Shown here: positions 46,825 to 64,000 of the stretch, one piece after another
Position numbering within the stretch: the stretch's first letter is position 1
How the letters are laid out: every line of letters begins with the position of its first letter
Source: Rhizobium sp. BT04
GTDB lineage: Bacteria; Pseudomonadota; Alphaproteobacteria; Rhizobiales; Rhizobiaceae
Length of the DNA stretch: 64,000 nucleotides
Direction of reading: 5' to 3'
Assembly: GCF_030053135.1 (NCBI RefSeq)
Contig: NZ_CP125649.1
Location: 1-64,000, forward strand
The notes under the pieces: generated by a model
Told to the model about the DNA's origin: nothing
The model's input: the letters and a program-made list of their open reading frames with translations, nothing else
Database searches by the model: none
Position numbers and translations under genes: made by a program

Positions 46825-46849
46825 CGGCAGGATATATCCTGATGTATAT
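46825..46849 (+). other. T-DNA border repeat 1
   Basis: CGGCAGGATATATCCTGATG followed by TATAT fits the 25-bp border consensus (TGGCAGGATATAT, variable spacer, TGTA). Read on the plus strand, as a left border it would place T-DNA to its right. Confidence 0.85.
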
Positions 46850-49399: not shown

Positions 49400-49424
49400 T
49401 GGCAGGATATATAGACATGTCAAT
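49400..49424 (+). other. T-DNA border repeat 2
   Basis: TGGCAGGATATATAGACATG followed by TCAAT matches the border consensus with a different spacer from borders 1 and 3. In the same orientation as border 1, it would act as the right border of a 2.6-kb T-DNA (46,825-49,424). No clear overdrive follows it. Confidence 0.85.
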
Positions 49425-50864: not shown

Positions 50865-50943
50865 TGTCAATGCTGAATTAGCCCCCGAAAGGCCCGGACA
50901 TGCTCCGCCACTTAGCTAAGTGGGTAGGAGTAATGTTGGTAAT

Positions 50944-51336
50944 ATGACTAGCAGCAATTTTAAGATGGAAGTCCTCGCCGGGCCGGAACGTCGGCGGCGT
51001 TGGAGCACGGCAGAGAAGCTGGCGATCATCCACGAAACCTATGAGGCGGACGCGACGGTGAGCATCGTCGCGCGTCGGCATGGCATCCAGCCGAACCAGT
51101 TGTTCGCCTGGCGCAAGCTGGCGTCCCAAGGGGCACTGACGGCGACGGCCGCCGAGGAGGAGGTCGTTCCGGCTTCCGAATACCGAGCACTTCAGGCCCA
51201 GGTGAAGGAGTTGCAACGCCTGTTGGGCAAGAAGACGATGGAGAGCGAAATCCTGAAGGAAGCTCTCGAAATCGCCGGTGGCCCAAAAAAACATCTGTTG
51301 CGCTCGCTCTCTCTTCCGAGGGGGATTTTGGAATGA
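50944..51336 (+). CDS. IS2-group OrfA, helix-turn-helix protein
   Basis: A 130-aa product: MTSSNFKMEVLAGPERRRRWSTAEKLAIIHETYEADATVSIVARRHGIQPNQLFAWRKL, followed by a leucine-zipper-like helix (ASEYRALQAQVKELQRLLGKKTMESEILKEALEI). The stop overlaps the orfB start (ATGA), where IS3 elements use frameshifting to make the OrfAB transposase. Confidence 0.88.
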   Translation: MTSSNFKMEVLAGPERRRRWSTAEKLAIIHETYEADATVSIVARRHGIQPNQLFAWRKLASQGALTATAAEEEVVPASEYRALQAQVKELQRLLGKKTMESEILKEALEIAGGPKKHLLRSLSLPRGILE

Positions 51337-52163
51337 AGACCGTCTGCGAAACTCTAGGTGTCGCCCGCTCGAATATCGCCGCGCGTGCCGCAAGCTCCCC
51401 TTCCAGAGCCAGAGGACGCCCGCCACTCCCGGATCGAGAACTGGTGGAGCACATCAAGGCCATCATCGCCGACATGCCCACCTACGGCTATCGGCGTGTC
51501 CATGCCATCCTGCGTCGGAATGCCCGGAAAGATGGGCGTTCGTGGCCCAATGCCAAGCGCGTCTACCGGGTGATGAAGCTGCACAATCTGCTGCTGGTGC
51601 GTCATACCGGAGCGGTCGATGATCGCCTTCACGACGGCCAAGTCGCCGTCGAGCGTTCGAACGTCAGATGGTGCTCCGACGGCTTCGAGATCGGCTGTGA
51701 CAACAAAGAGAAGGTCCGCGTCGCCTTCGCCCTCGACTGCTGCGACCGCGAGGCAATCGCCCATGTCGCCACCACGCAGGGCATCAAGAGCGAAGACGTG
51801 CAGGACCTCGTGATCACCGCTGTCGAGAACCGTTTCGGCCGCATCAACGTGCTATCCGAGCCCATCGAATGGCTCACCGACAACGGCTCCTGCTTCATCG
51901 CGAAGGACACCGCATCCTTGCTACGCGACATCGGCATGGAGCCGTGCACGACACCGGTGCGAAGCCCACAGTCGAACGGAATGGCGGAGGCGTTCGTCAA
52001 AACCTTCAAGCGCGACTACGTCTCGGTCAATCCAACCCCGGATGCTGAAACCGTCATCGCTCAACTGCCATTCTGGTTCGAGCATTACAACAATCTTCAT
52101 CCACACAGTGCTTTAGGATATCAATCGCCGCGCGAGTTCATCAGCTCGCGATCTCAAACCTGA
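51333..52163 (+). CDS. IS2-group OrfB, DDE transposase
   Basis: A 276-aa protein with the IS3 integrase core: RWCSDGFEIGCDNKEKVRVAFALDCCDREAI (first Asp), IEWLTDNGSCFIAKD (second Asp) and TTPVRSPQSNGMAEAFVKTFKRDYV (Glu), ending ALGYQSPREF. Full length and unbroken, so this copy may be active. Confidence 0.9.
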   Translation: MKTVCETLGVARSNIAARAASSPSRARGRPPLPDRELVEHIKAIIADMPTYGYRRVHAILRRNARKDGRSWPNAKRVYRVMKLHNLLLVRHTGAVDDRLHDGQVAVERSNVRWCSDGFEIGCDNKEKVRVAFALDCCDREAIAHVATTQGIKSEDVQDLVITAVENRFGRINVLSEPIEWLTDNGSCFIAKDTASLLRDIGMEPCTTPVRSPQSNGMAEAFVKTFKRDYVSVNPTPDAETVIAQLPFWFEHYNNLHPHSALGYQSPREFISSRSQT

Positions 52164-56979: not shown

Positions 56980-57004
56980 TGGCAGGATATATCCTGATGT
57001 AAAA
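56980..57004 (+). other. T-DNA border repeat 3
   Basis: TGGCAGGATATATCCTGATG followed by TAAAA is a near-perfect border. It has the same spacer as border 1 (CCTGA) and the same orientation, so both are candidate left borders. Confidence 0.88.
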
Positions 57005-57826
57005 CATCGTGTGAGTCTGGAAGGTCCACTTCCGGCTCATGTTTTACATCGGAGATGTCGCTTTCAGTCTATGTAACAAGGTTTTAAGTTCTTGCTAGAC
57101 AGTGATGCGCCCTCCACCTCGCCACCGGCCGCTTCCATCGTGAGATACGGCGGCCGTACCCTTTCCAACTGTCCTTCGGTGGTGAATCCAGTAACAGAAA
57201 GCGACAGCACAATGGCAACAACCTGGTAACTAAGTGGGCTTGCCGCCTATTCCGTTTGTAAACATTGGAAAATTTCATTATCAATAAAGAAAGATATCAA
57301 CGTGCCTGGCTTATATTAAACATTGAAAATAAAGACATCGCGCTAAACTTGCGAAATAACGTTAAATATGACAACTTCTACGAATAGCAATAAGAAGTCA
57401 CACAGTGGCACAGGATCGACCATTCGTGGTCGGTGAGTTCGTAGCGGCGACGCGTCATAGAGGCTCCCTCATTCGGAAGCCTTGAATCACGACACGCGAA
57501 AAACGCCAAGCAATTTATGAGTTCGCTGCCTGGAATTGTCTGGTTTGCAATACGGAATTATTAGATGATAAAGTTTGAGTTCGAATATCAAAAGTGCTCA
57601 GTGCATAAAAAATTGCGACGCAATTCATACAAATATAAATTCTTTTCATTAGCCTGACCTGGCTTATTCATAAAACGAAACACGTAGACGGACCTCGCCA
57701 CAAGGCCGAGACATAAACACGATAGCAAACGCTTACAAATCAAGGAAAAAATAACAACAGTCAAAAACTGACTGAACGAACACAACAATAGACCCAGGCC
57801 AACGTACGGCAACTTCGATCATGCGT
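57005..57826 (+). other. T-DNA interior without a recognised gene
   Basis: AT-rich DNA with only short overlapping frames on both strands; nothing I can support as a gene. Confidence 0.45.
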
Positions 57827-58147
57827 TTACCGCCGGCCTACGGCTGGCCCATATCCGACCACGTCGATCGAGCCCGTCAGAGGTGCGTTCCGATCAACAG
57901 CGATGTACCATGATGGCCCGGGGGGCGGGTTGGCCGGAGACTTGTCCGACAGAGACGGGCTTCCACTCAACCGTCTAGTGCTCACACATTCCTCAACCTC
58001 CGCTTTGCTCATATAGATGTATCCGAGGTCAATCGCGGGTATACCCTTTGCAATTGAGTAGTTCGTCTTGGCGTTATAGAGCGCAGAAGTCAGAAAACGA
58101 GCAGACGCATTTGTGAGTTGTAAGGGGGTCCACGACGACGACGACAT
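57827..58147 (-). CDS. T-DNA gene for a 106-aa protein, paralogue of the gene at 47.2 kb
   Basis: It aligns along its length with the 104-aa protein: SALYNAKTNYSIAKGIPAIDLGYIYMSKAEVEECVSTRRLSGSPSLSDKSPANPPPGPSWYIAVDRNAPLTGSIDVVGYGPAVGRR. ATG 58,147 is the first ATG after a TATA-type sequence (minus strand CCCCTATTTATATCC at 58,239-58,225), about 80 bases upstream, with no Shine-Dalgarno sequence. A RolA-like role is possible from size and context but unproven. Confidence 0.72.
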   Translation of the reverse strand: MSSSSWTPLQLTNASARFLTSALYNAKTNYSIAKGIPAIDLGYIYMSKAEVEECVSTRRLSGSPSLSDKSPANPPPGPSWYIAVDRNAPLTGSIDVVGYGPAVGRR

Positions 58148-58224
58148 CGTGAGGAGGCAGATGCTGCAAGTCTACGTTGTGTGATGGAAGGACAAGGAGT
58201 TGTGATGGCTAGAATGACGAGGAG

Positions 58225-58239
58225 GGATATAAATAGGGG
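58225..58239 (-). promoter_or_regulatory. TATA-type element for the 106-aa gene
   Basis: The minus strand reads CCCCTATTTATATCC, 78-92 bases before the ATG, with no other ATG between. Confidence 0.55.
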
Positions 58240-58656
58240 ACGGATTAAGTCCTTCCAGCCGTTGCAAAGTGGGTTTTTAGCCGGGCGAACAGAATAATGG
58301 CCTTTGCATGCGCGAAGCGCTAAAGAATAAAAAACTAGGGCCCTTCGCGAGACCCAAACATGGCTTACCGTTGGAGAACGACAGAAAGCGACAGCGTTAG
58401 GTTATTCTTATTGGCCACGCTTTGAGATGGCGACGCTTGATGGCTTTTCGCAAAAGACAAGAGGTCATTGATATCGCCCCGCGAAGAGCCGCCGCGAAAG
58501 CTCAAGGGATTGACCCTGAACACTTATGATGCGTGGATGTGGAGGCCCAATAAGGAAGAGCGCCCCGTGGCGCAAACAGCCCGGTTAGAATGCCCCGCAG
58601 TCGCAATCAAACTAGAGCCACCAAATCGATTGAAGAGGCACAATGCGTCACGCGCA
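58240..58656 (+). other. Spacer before the TTGGC repeats
   Basis: No gene supported. The 83-codon frame at 58,468-58,719 runs into the repeat tract and looks non-coding. Confidence 0.4.
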
Positions 58657-58700
58657 AGGCTTGGCTTGGCTTGGCAAGGTTTGGCTTGGCAAGGCTTGGC
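58657..58700 (+). repeat. TTGGC-type tandem repeat tract
   Basis: Repeated units of GCTTG/GCAAG type (AAGGCTTGGCTTGGCTTGGC, then AAGGTTTGGCTTGGCAAGGC) run directly into the border-like site, whose first bases TGGC are part of the repeat. Confidence 0.7.
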
Positions 58701-58721
58701 TGGATATATAGCTTTGTAGCC
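58697..58721 (+). other. Border-like site with an overdrive-like tail
   Basis: TGGCTGGATATATAGCTTTG followed by TAGCC matches the border consensus except for T in place of A at position 5. CTTTGTTTGTATG at 58,725-58,737 resembles the overdrive core (TGTTTGTTTG), which lies to the right of right borders. It could be the right border of the 106-aa gene's T-DNA or the left edge of the next one. Functionality is unproven. Confidence 0.5.
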
Positions 58722-58737
58722 TTTCTTTGTTTGTATG

Positions 58738-58813
58738 TATAAATAAGATTACGTATAATGCGAAATTGTGGCGAGCATTTTAATAGTAGGATTTCAATAA
58801 ATACATTTGAATT
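58738..58813 (+). promoter_or_regulatory. Plant-type promoter of the T6P synthase gene
   Basis: TATAAATAAG at 58,738-58,747 lies 67 bases before the ATG; no Shine-Dalgarno sequence (ATTTGAATT before ATG). A 19-codon upstream frame (58,758) overlaps the main ATG, but it would start upstream of the expected transcription start. Confidence 0.6.
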
Positions 58814-60292
58814 ATGAAGTGTGTGAGGCCGCAAAACACACTTGGTTCATCTACGGTAAATTGTTCAGAATGCTGTGCGCTGACGGAGCATGAGTTTCTA
58901 GGATGCCCGGTCGACCCAATCGACACGCAGGGTCGTCTGATCGTAGTTTCCAACAGAATTCGCCGTGATGCGTCTCCTGGTAACAATTCAGGCGGGTTGG
59001 CCGTCGCCGTGAATGCTGCTTTGAAGTTGAGGGGAGGCATCTGGATGGGCTGGTCCGGAAATACTGACGCCGAGGCTACATCAACGAAAATGACTCGAGA
59101 GGGAAATGTAACGTACGTCGAAGTTGACCTCACCACCGCCGACGTCCGGGACTACTACAACGGCTTTTCCAATCAGACCCTTTGGCCTCTTTTTCACTCG
59201 TTTAAGGATCGTGCGGTTCTTAGCGAAGATTACGAGGTGGCCTACCGGCGGGTGAACGCCACCTTTGCGGAAATACTTTTTCCTTTGTGGCGTCCGGATG
59301 ATGCAGTATGGGTGCATGATTACCACCTGATTCCACTGGCTGAAGAACTAAGGAAGCTAGGTTCCATAGGGCGTGTCGGTTTTTTTTTACATGTCCCGTG
59401 GCCGAAGTTCGAAGTGCTTCATGACGTGCCTGTACACAAGCTTTTGCTTAAAGCAATGTCCAGCTATGATGTGATAGGCTTTCAAACACGCAATGATTTG
59501 ACAAATTTTTATGAGGCTGTGAATTGCTGCAATGAGGGTGGAAAACTAGAGAATGACGTTGTTCTCTTGTTTGGGCGGCGGATCAAACTGGGTGCGTACG
59601 CTGTTTCCATTGAAACCCTGAATTTCGCGAAGTCCGCTGCGGCTGCGGCGAAGCAGCCGTCGATGCGTCAAATGGTGGAAAGCTTGCAGGGGCAGACGCT
59701 GATTATATCAGTTGATCGCCTTGACTACACGAAGGGCATCCTGGAGCGTGTGAGGGCTTACGAAACGTTCCTTAAAGGTAACCCCTCGTATCTCAGGAAA
59801 GTGACTTATCTCCAGATCGCTCCCATATCCCGCTCCGACGTTCTGGAATATCAACAATTGCAAGCGGCGGTCGCGGAAGCGGTCGGCAAGGCAAATGGCG
59901 CAATCGGGACGGCGGACTGGACGCCTCTTCGCTATATCAATTCTGGTTCGTCTAGAGATGAGCTTGGCGCTCTTTTTAGGTTGGCGAGGGTTGGATTCGT
60001 AACGCCGATCAGGGATGGCATGAACCTCGTGGCGAAGGAATATATTGCAGCGCAAGACGCGGCCAACCCTGGCGTTTTAATTATTTCTGGGTTTGCTGGC
60101 GCCGCGCAAGAGCTTTCTGCGGGTATTATTGTAGATCCCCGAAATATTCAAAGTATGGCTCAGGCAATTGCAGACGCCTTAGAAATGCCGCTTACTGAGC
60201 GTAAAGATCGTTGGAGGAATATGATGACCTGGCTGTTGGAACACGATATCAACTACTGGACCAATACGTATCTTAATGACTTATTTAGCTAA
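58814..60292 (+). CDS. otsA: Trehalose-6-phosphate synthase (OtsA type) in T-DNA context
   Basis: A GT20 enzyme: UDP-glucose plus glucose-6-phosphate to trehalose-6-phosphate. The 492-aa protein aligns over its length with bacterial OtsA after an extra 39 residues. Key sites are present: VVSNRIRR, NSGGLAVAV, WMGWSG, YYNGFSNQTLWPLFH, VWVHDYHLIPLA, FFLHVPWP, SVDRLDYTKGILERV (Arg and Lys for phosphate) and TPIRDGMNLVAKEYIAAQ (Asp, Glu for nucleotide-sugar). There is no phosphatase domain. It has a TATA box, no Shine-Dalgarno sequence, and lies right of the border sites beside an opine-synthase gene, so I infer a T-DNA gene expressed in plants. The N-terminal extension (Cys-rich) resembles no targeting signal I know. 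Confidence 0.88.
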   Translation: MKCVRPQNTLGSSTVNCSECCALTEHEFLGCPVDPIDTQGRLIVVSNRIRRDASPGNNSGGLAVAVNAALKLRGGIWMGWSGNTDAEATSTKMTREGNVTYVEVDLTTADVRDYYNGFSNQTLWPLFHSFKDRAVLSEDYEVAYRRVNATFAEILFPLWRPDDAVWVHDYHLIPLAEELRKLGSIGRVGFFLHVPWPKFEVLHDVPVHKLLLKAMSSYDVIGFQTRNDLTNFYEAVNCCNEGGKLENDVVLLFGRRIKLGAYAVSIETLNFAKSAAAAAKQPSMRQMVESLQGQTLIISVDRLDYTKGILERVRAYETFLKGNPSYLRKVTYLQIAPISRSDVLEYQQLQAAVAEAVGKANGAIGTADWTPLRYINSGSSRDELGALFRLARVGFVTPIRDGMNLVAKEYIAAQDAANPGVLIISGFAGAAQELSAGIIVDPRNIQSMAQAIADALEMPLTERKDRWRNMMTWLLEHDINYWTNTYLNDLFS

Positions 60293-60690
60293 AGCACTAC
60301 TGTCATGGGACGAATATTATTTATTTATACGTTCATATGTATAACTCGTTGTGCTGAAAAGGCGAGATCCATGTAAAGATCAATACAGTATACATCGTCT
60401 GCCTGAGTCAAATTATTGGTATGAATTAGTTTCGCTAACTAGCTTCGTAATTTTCTTTATCTCTAGTGTATGGCTTATTTAATCTGAAATAATGTAGCTA
60501 TATTATTTGTTGTATAAATGGCGCATTTTGTTTCCAAAAGGCGATCTAAAAGACCCATGACTGCCTCCAAAAGACAGTCTTGAATCTGATTTGCTCACTT
60601 TTGGGAATCCCAAGAGTCCACGGCTTCTAGATCGTATGGTTGTGCGCCATTGTGATTGATGGGCCACTCCAAGACTTTTGCTAGCGCATA
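60293..60690 (+). other. Spacer between the T6P synthase and opine synthase genes
   Basis: AT-rich, no gene. AATAAT near 60,489 could be a poly(A) signal. Confidence 0.45.
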
Positions 60691-60691
60691 A

Positions 60692-60737
60692 TGCGTAAGT
60701 GCTTACGTCAAAAATCCCTTTCATCGATTATAAATAC
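60692..60737 (+). promoter_or_regulatory. ocs-type enhancer palindrome and TATA box
   Basis: TGCGTAAGTGCTTACGTCA (60,692-60,710) matches the ocs element core ACGTAAGCGCTTACGT at 14 of 16 bases. This element is bound by plant TGA/OBF bZIP factors and is found in octopine synthase and other T-DNA promoters. TATAAATA follows at about 60,730, and the first ATG is 60 bases further on. Confidence 0.75.
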
Positions 60738-60792
60738 GGAGTTTGGCAAGGGGAAATTCACATCTCAATCCTACAATCAAATTTCTCTAAAT

Positions 60793-61848
60793 ATGAAAGT
60801 CCTTATTATCGGCGCCGGTAATCTTGGAAACGCGTTCGCCGCGGACTTATCCAGCCGAAATCATCGGGTTTCAATTTGGACTCACCCCAGTCATCCCGGC
60901 AACAGCATCAAGATTGCCAATGAAGGGCTAGAAGCAAAGGGGGCTGTTGTTGGGCATTTCTACCCCACCATTCTCCCAGACCTTGGCCATGCCGTATCCG
61001 AGGCAGAAGCAATCATTGTTACCATTCCCGCTAAGGCCGGCGTTAAGGAAGAGCTGAAGGTCAGGCTGGCTGAACATGACCTCGCAAGCAAGATCCTTAT
61101 ATGGGTTCCCGGACTTTTGGCGAGCCTGGTTGGGGTTAAGCTAAGCACTGCTGCCACGTTTGAGGCGTCCAACTCACCTTATGGCTGCCGTATCGATGAA
61201 GGTAAGGCTTTCATTAAGGCCTTTAAAAAGGTGATTGAGATTGCCGCTTTCGATGCTGACAGTGAGACGGAGTATCGAAGTCAAGTCGAAGCTCTCTTTC
61301 CAAGTAGGCTTGAATGGCGTGCAAACATACTGGATGTCGCCATGCACAACACCAATTTCATCACTCATCCGGTGACCGTGATAGAGAACGCCCAGCGCAT
61401 CCTGGCTGGTGAGAGCTTTCGCTTTTATAGGGACGGTATGACCCCCTCCGTCTGTGAGAAGATGGAGAAACTTGATGAACTCCGCATGTCCGTTATTGCG
61501 AAGTTCAATTTTGCAGGGATTAGCGACATCGGTCTGGTCAATCGTTGGTATGGAAGGAACGAGCCAAACTATCTCGCGTTTGCGCGCAATTCTCCCTCTC
61601 ACAATGCCACGCTTGGAGTTCCCTCCGACATGCAGCACCGTTACCTTACTGAAGACTGCCGGATGCTCCCCTTTTACAGAGGCCTTGCAGAAAAGTTCGG
61701 TATCAACGCCGAGATCGCGGACTGGGTTTTGGCTCAAGCACGGGCTTTAGCCGGAGAGGACTTCGAAGAAACCGGACTGACCCTAGCTAAACTGGATATG
61801 GAGGGTCTCTCTGGGGATGAAATCGTCGCGAAATGGGGTGCAAATTAA
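60793..61848 (+). CDS. Opine synthase (octopine/nopaline dehydrogenase family)
   Basis: Opine synthases reductively condense an amino acid with a keto acid or sugar in the transformed plant, giving a nutrient for the bacteria. The 351-aa protein has the Rossmann start MKVLIIGAGNLGNAFAADLSSRNHRVSIW, a central SNSPYGCRIDEGKAF and the C-terminal domain with MHNTNFITHPVTVIENAQRILAG, RFYRDGMTP, NRWYGRNEPN and MQHRYLTEDCRMLPFYRGLAEKFGI. Its ending LAKLDMEGLSGDEIVAKWG resembles octopine synthase. ATG 60,793 is the first after the TATA box, with no Shine-Dalgarno sequence. The substrate cannot be told from sequence by eye; octopine-, vitopine- or other-type are all possible. Confidence 0.88.
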   Translation: MKVLIIGAGNLGNAFAADLSSRNHRVSIWTHPSHPGNSIKIANEGLEAKGAVVGHFYPTILPDLGHAVSEAEAIIVTIPAKAGVKEELKVRLAEHDLASKILIWVPGLLASLVGVKLSTAATFEASNSPYGCRIDEGKAFIKAFKKVIEIAAFDADSETEYRSQVEALFPSRLEWRANILDVAMHNTNFITHPVTVIENAQRILAGESFRFYRDGMTPSVCEKMEKLDELRMSVIAKFNFAGISDIGLVNRWYGRNEPNYLAFARNSPSHNATLGVPSDMQHRYLTEDCRMLPFYRGLAEKFGINAEIADWVLAQARALAGEDFEETGLTLAKLDMEGLSGDEIVAKWGAN

Positions 61849-62120
61849 TCCAGAAGTACCGAAACACAATCTACGTTTGTGTTTTCGCGGAAGTTATAAG
61901 TGTTGTTATGCTCTACATTATGCGGTTATTGCCGCTCCCCGTAGTGTGATGATGGCGTTCAACCGAGCCCTAAGGCTCTAATGCATTATAAATGAAAGAA
62001 CGCTAAATCGGATTGTACGTGGTTGTGATGTATCTGCTCGCTCTTATGTATAAATAAAGCGGCCTTTGTTATCGTTTTTAATGTAAATCAACAAGATTGT
62101 GCGACTATCTTAAGTGTGAA

Positions 62121-62479
62121 TTACCATTCCGTGCTCCCCGTGAACTGCACCCTGATGCCGAAATTTTCGACTACGCGAAATCCGTTACCCTTAGAAAGCC
62201 AAATATTACGTAGATTTTGATAAAATAATTTCGGCAACGCTATTTCAATTTGAGCGGTTAAAGGTTGCGTGTTTGCAGCTGCCGACGGAGGGATACTGTA
62301 ATAAAAAATCAAACACAGCTATTTAAATCAAGTGGAATTACAAAAACGTGTTCAACCAAAGTACCATAATCCATATATTGTATTCTTTGATAAGCCGCGT
62401 AGACTACCATCCCGCGAATACACGCTTTTGATTTGAGAAGGGTTAGGCCGTCAATACAGTCGGCTTCGACGAAAATATG
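62121..62479 (-). pseudogene. Unidentified gene fragment with one frameshift
   Basis: Read leftwards: HIFVEADCIDGLTLLKSKACIRGMVVYAAYQRIQYMDYGTLVEHVFVIPLDLNSC, then after a shift near 62,311 IFYYSIPPSAAANTQPLTAQIEIALPKLFYQNLRNIWLSKGNGFRVVENFGIRVQFTGSTEW. Both halves look like one natural protein of about 118 residues whose 5' end is missing. The shift lies beside a run of six T. It is in the T-DNA-like region, but I recognise no known T-DNA protein. Confidence 0.5.
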
Positions 62480-62755
62480 CTAGGGATTACTTTGCTCCTG
62501 CAAACCGGACCTCACTGGGCATTTGAGCCCTGCCCTGACGTCATTCTCACGAAAATGGCTCGTCACCCGGTCTATAAATTCTTATCACTGACCAACATAT
62601 TTGCCAAAAAGGCCGAAATTTCTTGCAATGTCTAGCCAATTTCCCGAAGCACCGTATCCTATAATTCGCGAGATGTTGGGGCAGCAGATGGCTTTTTTTG
62701 TCTGCTTGAACTCCGAAAAGGTAGGCCTGTACTTTAAATTTTCTGCCGTTTGCAA

Positions 62756-63209
62756 TAGTGATTGAATATTTTGTACAGATCAAGTTCGCGGTCGATTGGG
62801 AACCTTTGGAGGAAAAACTGGCAAGCGAGAATAAAGATGCGCTCGTGGCAATGCAGAAGATCAAATCCATTGATATCGTCGAGTTGGCCGACAAGGGGTG
62901 GGGGTGGCTGACAACTTCAAGGAAAACGTAAAGGATGCCTATTCTATTGCTGAGCGGATTGCTCTGGGATATGAACCAGCGAGGGATAAGCCATTGCTTG
63001 ATGCAGTCGGCAAACGAATCATGATATCGAAAGCTGTGCCCAATTACCCCCATATTGAAAATCTCGATCAACTGAAGACGTTCTTTATCTGGTTTAAACA
63101 AATCAAGAGTTTTGACAACGAGCCCGGTTGCGCCAGCGGGATCGCAAATTGTTTTACTTTTAATCATTATCTTGACGCGACAACTACAGCACAATCACTA
63201 ACTCAATGA
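62756..63209 (+). pseudogene. Unidentified gene with a frameshift at a G-rich run
   Basis: IEYFVQIKFAVDWEPLEEKLASENKDALVAMQKIKSIDIVELADKGWG is followed, after a shift at a GGGGTGGGGG run (about 62,895), by VADNFKENVKDAYSIAERIALGYEPARDKPLLDAVGKRIMISKAVPNYPHIENLDQLKTFFIWFKQIKSFDNEPGCASGIANCFTFNHYLDATTTAQSLTQ. Charged, soluble, about 150 residues, no recognised domain. A start codon for the first part is unclear (GTG at 62,756 possible). The longer minus-strand frame over the same bases looks like an antisense artefact. Confidence 0.5.
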
Positions 63210-63710
63210 TGACCGGTCTTACAGGTGTCCCGTGAACAAAACTGCGCTGTCATTTTCAAGTGACGACAATAAGATAAGGCAAAAAGTCTTGCGCCACGTG
63301 ATTGTGCCCCACAAGCGTTTGGACGCGATAGGCGGGTTTCGTCCTGTGTGAGGTAAGCGCTGACGACAGAGCAGATAACCACTCCCCAATTGGTGCCTTT
63401 ATTCACTGATTTTTGTGCAATTAATTATAGGGGCAATTTTCAAGCCAGTATTCCGAAAGTCTTTGAGTCACGTGATGCTCAATAAAACGATGGATTTATG
63501 CGCACGGCGCTGTCAGTAAGTCTCGTAAGCCATGACGATAGCACAGTGGAAGGCGCATATTTCAAAACTGGCGGCTTATCTTCGCTGGCAATAAGTGGAC
63601 GTTCCATTTGCCGTCGCACCAAAGGGCCGCGTAACCCTGCCCTGTTTAACGAATGCGTGTTTGATCCTGATATGTCTAATTGGTTATAAAAGACGATCTT
63701 GGCGGGTGAT
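63210..63710 (+). other. No gene seen
   Basis: About 500 bases with short overlapping frames only; no border repeat found here, so the right end of the opine-synthase T-DNA is outside the window or lost. Confidence 0.4.
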
Positions 63711-64000
63711 CTGAACCCTTCAAACTGGACCAGTTTTGGTTAGAGTTTTCCGGTGCATTTTCCTGGCTGGGAAAGGGACCAGAAGACGATGAAAGCGTCG
63801 CAGTTTTCGGACGCTCAGAAGGCGTTCATTCTGAAGCAAGGTGATGAAGGCGTGTCGGTTGCTGAAATCTGCAGGAAGGCGGGGATCAGCCAGGCGACTT
63901 ATTTCAACTGGAAGAAAAAATACGCGGGCATGCTGCCACCGGAGATGAAGAGGCTGAAACAGCTCGAGGACGAGAATTCGCGCCTGAAGAAGATCGTCGC
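63711..64000 (+). mobile_element. IS3-family element, left end (runs off the window)
   Basis: TGATCTGAACCCTTCAAACT near 63,711 looks like the left terminus. orfA starts at 63,789 (MKASQFSDAQKAFILKQGDEGVSVAEICRKAGISQATYFNWKKKYAGMLPPEMKRLKQLEDENSRLKKIV), the IS407-group HTH protein, with an SD-like region upstream. It continues beyond the window. Confidence 0.85.

Follow-up and report, generated by a model that had tools for sequence, protein, structure and literature searches.

A trehalose-6-phosphate synthase-like gene in border-flanked segments of p42a-type Rhizobium plasmids and Agrobacterium larrymoorei Ti plasmids, with a possible role in an agrocinopine-like opine

The p42a-type plasmids of Rhizobium carry an intact, divergent otsA-like gene that is predicted to encode a trehalose-6-phosphate (T6P) synthase with a functional-looking active site, and the only close relative found lies on two Ti plasmids of Agrobacterium larrymoorei, pTiCFBP5473 (NZ_CP039694.1) and pTiAF3.44. 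Based on its sequence and surroundings, we tentatively propose, as a reading nearly balanced between right and wrong, that this gene is part of a lineage of T-DNAs destined for transfer to plant cells and supplies trehalose or T6P, instead of sucrose, to an agrocinopine-like phosphodiester opine. The broader claim, somewhat less likely than not, is that of an undescribed opine class, a trehalose-containing sugar phosphodiester made by a two-gene T-DNA (OtsA plus an Acs-clade synthetase) and served by its own traR-linked operon, with T6P perhaps also shifting host sugar signalling.

The window, that is the whole stretch of 64,000 nucleotides analysed, is part of a p42a-type Rhizobium plasmid (contig 3 of a 7-contig genome). 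Positions 57000-64000 match the R. etli CFN42 plasmid p42a (NC_007762.1) at 99.8%, and plasmids from R. sophoriradicis and from Rhizobium sp. K102 equally well. The features on which the analysis bears are the following:

46825..46847, + strand: T-border-like repeat, 2 mismatches
49400..49422, + strand: T-border-like repeat, 0 mismatches
56980..57002, + strand: T-border-like repeat (border 3), 0 mismatches
58697..58719, + strand: T-border-like repeat (border 4), 2 mismatches, its core ending 95 bp before the otsA ATG
58732..58765, + strand: promoter block of 34 bp, with TATAAATA at 58738, 27/34 identical to the region upstream of pTiCFBP5473 otsA
58814..60292, + strand: otsA-like gene, predicted trehalose-6-phosphate synthase (GT20), from PF00982, structure alignments and translations
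60691..60710, - strand: ocs-element-like palindrome preceding the dehydrogenase gene, with 1 mismatch to the ocs-element consensus
60729..60736, + strand: TATAAATA box of the dehydrogenase gene, 64 bp before its ATG
60793..61848, + strand: octopine/nopaline-dehydrogenase-family (opine-synthase-like) gene, 351 aa, PF02317 E 3.7e-27
Contig position 67613, outside the window, + strand: border 5, right-hand border of the otsA segment, 2 mismatches

Searches with the border pattern TGRCAGGATATATN6GTNA revealed four matches in the window at up to three mismatches, against 0.30 expected, and none of 100 shuffles reached four. The whole 7-Mb genome contains one further match with two mismatches elsewhere, and the reversed control pattern matches once. 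The p42a-type otsA is located between the borders at 58697 and contig 67613, which share one orientation and have two mismatches each. The original prediction had placed the gene next to border sites and beside an opine synthase. Border 4 and its right-hand counterpart, which mobilisation would require, are indeed recognisable at the level of sequence, and the PF02317 neighbour is 56-57% identical to opine dehydrogenases of Ti plasmids. The open reading frame of this neighbour spans 60691-61848, its true start is probably 60793, and a padloc scan of it gave no result. An overdrive-like motif after border 4 (TTTGTTTG) was considered and given no weight, as it adjoins the block common to pTiCFBP5473. 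The five border matches of contig 3 fit the five border-like sequences described for p42a in PMC8554961, which places a gene of the octopine/nopaline-dehydrogenase type between borders 4 and 5, crediting border 4 and this gene to Otten. The accessible part of PMC4788154 describes the p42a vir region as functional and its vir genes as moving the T-DNA of a binary vector, and states that no T-DNA sequences or borders were seen there.

A fuller version of this setting appears to be kept in A. larrymoorei, as a 6.3-kb border-flanked segment with otsA and a divergent acs-like synthetase gene. On pTiCFBP5473, otsA (L003:20001-21476) diverges from this GDPD-family gene (L003:18187-19437), whose product is 40-44% identical (best 43.7%) to Ti-plasmid proteins, several of them annotated as agrocinopine synthase; its matches in the plasmid collection are nearly all Agrobacterium or Rhizobium records. 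The AvrBs2 model NF041304 also detects it (E 4.7e-18), far under the model cut-off of 1000. Four border matches with at most two mismatches occur in the 404,101 bases of pTiCFBP5473 (114230, 120511, 182951 and 205533). All four lie on the same strand, the reversed pattern has no match, and pTiAF3.44 gives the same four. The pair around otsA, with one mismatch each, delimits a small T-DNA (114230-120533) holding the acs-like gene, otsA and one IS3 element, with no hormone genes. Among the genes of the large segment (182951-205555, 22.6 kb) are iaaH with an adjoining FAD oxidoreductase, one for an isopentenyl transferase and one of the opine-dehydrogenase type. Support for the predicted T-DNA gene with plant-type signals comes less from the window than from this otsA relative, which has a border on either side and an agrocinopine-synthase-like gene next to it. 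In the window, tblastn with the Acs-like protein retrieved no acs (best E 0.67).

In the accessible text of PMC8756689, pTiCFBP5473 and pTiAF3.44 represent the type X Ti plasmid, Table 2 lists '?' as opine type for pTiCFBP5473, and a single T-DNA of about 93 kb including the vir genes is reported, a translocated or unidentified border being suspected. The distance from 114230 to 205533 is 91 kb. Under the border motif printed in the same text, 114230 alone fits strictly and 205533 misses the last specified base. Judging from the pattern matches, the two inner sites would resolve this oddity, pTiCFBP5473 then being read as carrying two ordinary-sized T-DNAs instead of one of about 93 kb.

The regions upstream of both otsA copies point to plant-type promoter signals. 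In the window, TATAAATAAG begins at 58738, at a distance of 76 bp from the start codon of otsA, and across both copies the TATAAATA box precedes the ATG by 70-76 bp. Neither copy has a Shine-Dalgarno sequence, and AGGA, GGAG and GAGG are absent from the 22 bp before the ATG in the window; the box and the missing ribosome-binding site were thus as predicted. The 34-bp TATA block, 12 bp upstream of which border 4 ends in p42a, scored 33 between the two copies against a shuffled mean of 16.5 (0/1000 shuffles as high), and no likeness was detected from -300 to -110 (895/1000 shuffles as high). An ocs-element-like palindrome occurs in the acs/otsA intergenic region of pTiCFBP5473, with one mismatch to the ocs-element consensus. 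A weaker one (two mismatches) lies inside the large T-DNA of the same plasmid, and no ocs-like match with up to three mismatches was found close upstream of p42a otsA, 0.65 such matches being expected per window. Elsewhere in the window, a palindrome of this type with two mismatches is found at 63349-63368.

To the left of the small T-DNA, pTiCFBP5473 carries traR and genes for an aldose 1-epimerase, a Na/Pi cotransporter, an inositol-monophosphatase-type enzyme, a GDPD and an ABC transporter with its binding protein, together with a ROK gene in divergent orientation (L003:1714-12439). By its gene content, this traR-linked operon is predicted to serve phosphodiester uptake and cleavage. The same operon was identified in 10 other plasmid records (binding protein 69-75%, GDPD 78-86%), which are not independent, strain F2/5 being represented twice and the LBA plasmids being related. 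By tblastn, sucrose phosphorylase is present in 10/10 of them (in pieces in L106, L118 and L119); acs genes occur in 3/10 of the operon stretches and otsA in 0/10. Sucrose phosphorylase is absent from the whole pTiCFBP5473 record, which also gave no GH13, trehalase or ThuA match. This absence supports a non-sucrose opine in a suggestive way only, because the records are non-independent and F2/5 carries both epimerase and sucrose phosphorylase. In the two F2/5 records these genes stand together with an alpha-galactosidase, and the idea of a sucrose phosphorylase replaced by an aldose epimerase was softened for this reason. Elsewhere on pTiCFBP5473, at 327-334 kb (L123:42460-49710), a 3-keto-disaccharide hydrolase (PF06439), a GFO/IDH/MocA oxidoreductase and a sugar ABC transporter form a cluster that could, as a lead, use the disaccharide half of the opine.

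Agrocinopines A-D are phosphodiesters of arabinose or glucose joined to sucrose, glucose or fructose, according to the available text of PMC7356202. Like the agrocinopine system (T-DNA acs plus acc-type catabolism), pTiCFBP5473 has an Acs-clade synthetase, a GDPD, a phosphatase, a transporter and traR; it differs in the additional predicted disaccharide synthase of its T-DNA, in lacking sucrose phosphorylase, and in having a ROK gene and a solute-binding-protein transporter. AvrBs2, close to agrocinopine synthase in the tree of PMC12807533, turns UDP-galactose into a sugar phosphodiester with UMP as side product, and agrocinopine biosynthesis is described as still unknown in the part of that paper available. 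In the xanthosan system (AvrBs2-XanT-XanP) of the same source, the plant-made phosphodiester of a GDE-derived synthetase is likewise taken up and cleaved, with a ROK gene in the cluster. It differs in relying on an injected protein, not T-DNA, and on UDP-galactose as substrate, and the accessible sections report no disaccharide synthase (PMC12807533).

From this gene content we infer the following route. The plant cell would express the transferred otsA from its plant-type promoter, and OtsA would convert plant UDP-glucose and glucose-6-phosphate into T6P. Either T6P, or trehalose after the action of plant phosphatases, would replace sucrose as the disaccharide, which the Acs-like synthetase would join to a second sugar via a phosphodiester bond. 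The bacterium would then import the opine by the neighbouring ABC transporter; the GDPD would split it, the inositol-monophosphatase-type enzyme would remove the phosphate, and the opine would induce traR. Sucrose is abundant in plants and trehalose is scarce; the T-DNA would bring its own disaccharide synthase because of this scarcity, since sucrose needs no extra gene. The proposal draws on the intact active site, the border-flanked pairing with acs, the TATA block and ocs-like element, the lack of a Shine-Dalgarno sequence, the low GC3 and dN/dS of 0.36 (see below), the traR-linked phosphodiester operon, the sucrose phosphorylase absence, AvrBs2 chemistry and the 3-keto-disaccharide hydrolase cluster. 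Against it stand the missing trehalase, ThuA and GH13 matches on pTiCFBP5473, a sucrose phosphorylase absence that may be simple loss, an OtsA score below the equivalog cut-off, and the lack of acs in p42a, which leaves a single lineage to support the pairing. Sucrose could also still be the substrate of the Acs-like protein.

T6P is an established plant sugar signal, and the predicted product of the transferred gene would in this sense be central to the host. It has therefore to be considered that T6P itself is the effector, OtsA raising T6P levels, which would act on SnRK1 and steer carbon into the tumour, with the Acs-like protein working separately, for example with sucrose. An intact predicted T6P synthase with plant-type signals agrees with this explanation, as does the presence of otsA without acs in p42a, but otsA is closely paired with an opine synthetase, the segment they share is devoid of hormone genes and adjoins a catabolic operon, and nothing was found for signalling beyond the predicted enzyme itself, making it unlikely. 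Of the two roles first suggested for the gene, the supply of trehalose-type compounds fits the A. larrymoorei context better than T6P/SnRK1 signalling, which could be a side effect of the opine route.

The otsA frame is intact (492 aa) and matches PF00982 over residues 56-490, nearly the full GT20 length (E 1.5e-114), with an N-terminal extension of about 39 residues common to the A. larrymoorei copy. Solved OtsA structures align over residues 40-490 (5hxa, E 4.7e-131; E. coli 2wtx, E 8.3e-119). By alignment with 2wtx, the residues R48, G60/G61, W80, Y115, W124, D169, H193, R302, K307, R340, D401, M403-V406 and E409, which correspond to those binding UDP-glucose and glucose-6-phosphate in E. 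coli OtsA, are present; on this list, the complete OtsA with all substrate residues of the original prediction was recovered. In RefSeq, the model of p42a otsA begins 48 codons later than the ATG adopted in this analysis (L004:15001-15145) and drops R48, the first substrate-contact residue; the A. larrymoorei annotation uses the homologous ATG. Among the 117 positions invariant in 119 other OtsAs, 107 are kept in the p42a-type protein, the ten losses including R130 and L133, which closely follow the conserved motif YYNGFSN..LW. Scores with TIGR02400, the curated OtsA equivalog, were 538.9 for p42a and 538.2 for pTiCFBP5473, both below the cut-off of 564.85, hence the label OtsA-like. In a midpoint-rooted tree of 62 of 121 rows with bootstrap not fully settled, the T-DNA otsA pair was recovered in 100/100 replicates, with a stem length of 2.65 changes per column. 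This very long stem, the sub-threshold score and the changes at R130 and L133, two positions invariant in the other OtsAs, would suit a GT20 enzyme that changed substrate and makes another glucoside phosphate for the same opine pathway, which is nonetheless quite unlikely given the retention of the substrate-contact residues and the far lower score of the glucosylglycerol-phosphate synthase model (262 bits, vs 539 bits for OtsA).

OtsA matched 360 of 72,556 plasmid records, only five at 80% or more and 355 under 60%; the five comprise three p42a-type plasmids (99.8%) and the two A. larrymoorei Ti plasmids (87.8% aa), pTiCFBP5473 otsA being 91.2% identical to the p42a-type gene in DNA. A protein search of about 5.8 billion sequences, in which the best 8000 candidates by common words were scored, returned the p42a-type and A. 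larrymoorei clusters and then, among the matches listed, nothing above 52%. The genome contig collection gave 52% at best (best 80 of 593), and 141 of 394 Rhizobiaceae genomes matched otsA by DNA, with 72% over 262 bp as the best other match. A wider family of T-DNA otsA was sought and not found in these protein, plasmid, contig and Rhizobiaceae genome searches. The comparison advised at the outset set the gene, among the matches listed, at no more than 52% identity to chromosomal rhizobial otsA and at 88% to the Ti-plasmid copies. Chromosomal and plasmid OtsAs of Rhizobiaceae share the GT20 family and active-site residues with T-DNA otsA, which differs by this low identity, its N-terminal extension, low GC3, lack of a Shine-Dalgarno sequence and T-DNA setting. 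GC3 is 0.54-0.55 in both otsA genes, 0.56 in the dehydrogenase gene and 0.47 in acs, against 0.75 in the open frame of a second, chromosomal otsA on contig 6 of the same genome.

Comparison of the p42a-type and pTiCFBP5473 copies over 491 codons gave dN 0.064, dS 0.176 and dN/dS 0.36, and the OtsA protein has therefore been constrained by purifying selection. For virC1, virE2 and virD4 of the same plasmids, dS is 1.5-2.6 (virG, whose frame held 12 stops, was left out), a difference which implies that otsA was exchanged between the two plasmid lineages at a comparatively recent time and the vir genes were not. Homology at the 3' end runs about 110 bp past the stop. That otsA is an ordinary bacterial plasmid gene for osmoprotection, lying between border-like repeats by chance, is very improbable: plasmid-borne otsA is common, as the 360 records attest, and a two-mismatch border match in p42a could be chance, but against this speak the location of the A. 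larrymoorei copy within a clean pair of borders and next to an acs-like gene, the deep lineage that the T-DNA copies form, the conserved TATA block without Shine-Dalgarno sequence, the low GC3 and the chromosomal otsA already present in this genome.

Consistent with the original prediction, which knew of no standard T-DNA gene of this function, no mention of a T-DNA-borne otsA or trehalose-6-phosphate synthase was found in the searchable literature, a body that does not cover the Otten 2021 survey, and the word 'trehalose' is absent from the main text of PMC4788154 and PMC8554961. The p42a borders and dehydrogenase neighbour are already published. The A. larrymoorei relative, beside its opine-making type of gene, suggests an unrecognised bacterial food made by the plant. 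Opines define the crown-gall niche, and the trehalose-phosphodiester reading gives a testable structure class for one opine of pTiCFBP5473. Where R. etli CFN42 is used to transform plants, otsA joins the published opine-synthase-like gene as a further native gene in a border-flanked segment.

The p42a and A. larrymoorei segments have in common the otsA lineage, the TATA block and border flanks, and differ in the company of otsA, which in the latter is an acs-like gene together with an ocs-like element and in p42a an opine-dehydrogenase gene. With no synthetase, a truncated promoter and this different neighbour, p42a otsA looks like an orphan remnant, its reading frame still open, and would probably make only T6P if transferred. 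In p42a, ISRel21 separates the dehydrogenase gene from border 5, immediately to the right of which lies ISRel20. The border 4-5 segment measures 6.3 kb in p42a vs 8.9 kb in this assembly, with about 2.6 kb extra between ISRel21 and border 5 (contig 64000-67613 vs L004:20182-21173). Positions 62700-63230 contain broken reading frames, partly annotated as a hypothetical protein in p42a, and a 215-aa minus-strand ORF (62547-63194) has no Pfam match. Between borders 3 and 4, the stretch 57531-58661 has DNA matches of 84-90% at several places on Bradyrhizobium plasmids and is perhaps a mobile element. On the Ti plasmid side, pTiCFBP5473 is annotated with a dndABCDE DNA phosphorothioation set (L125:33656-39876). 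Positions 50896-51467 of the window are 73% identical in DNA to a part of pTiCFBP5473 (L013:19662-20231) that adjoins the large T-DNA on the outer side of its right border, a match that hints that the borders at 46825 and 49400 may have bounded an older T-DNA.
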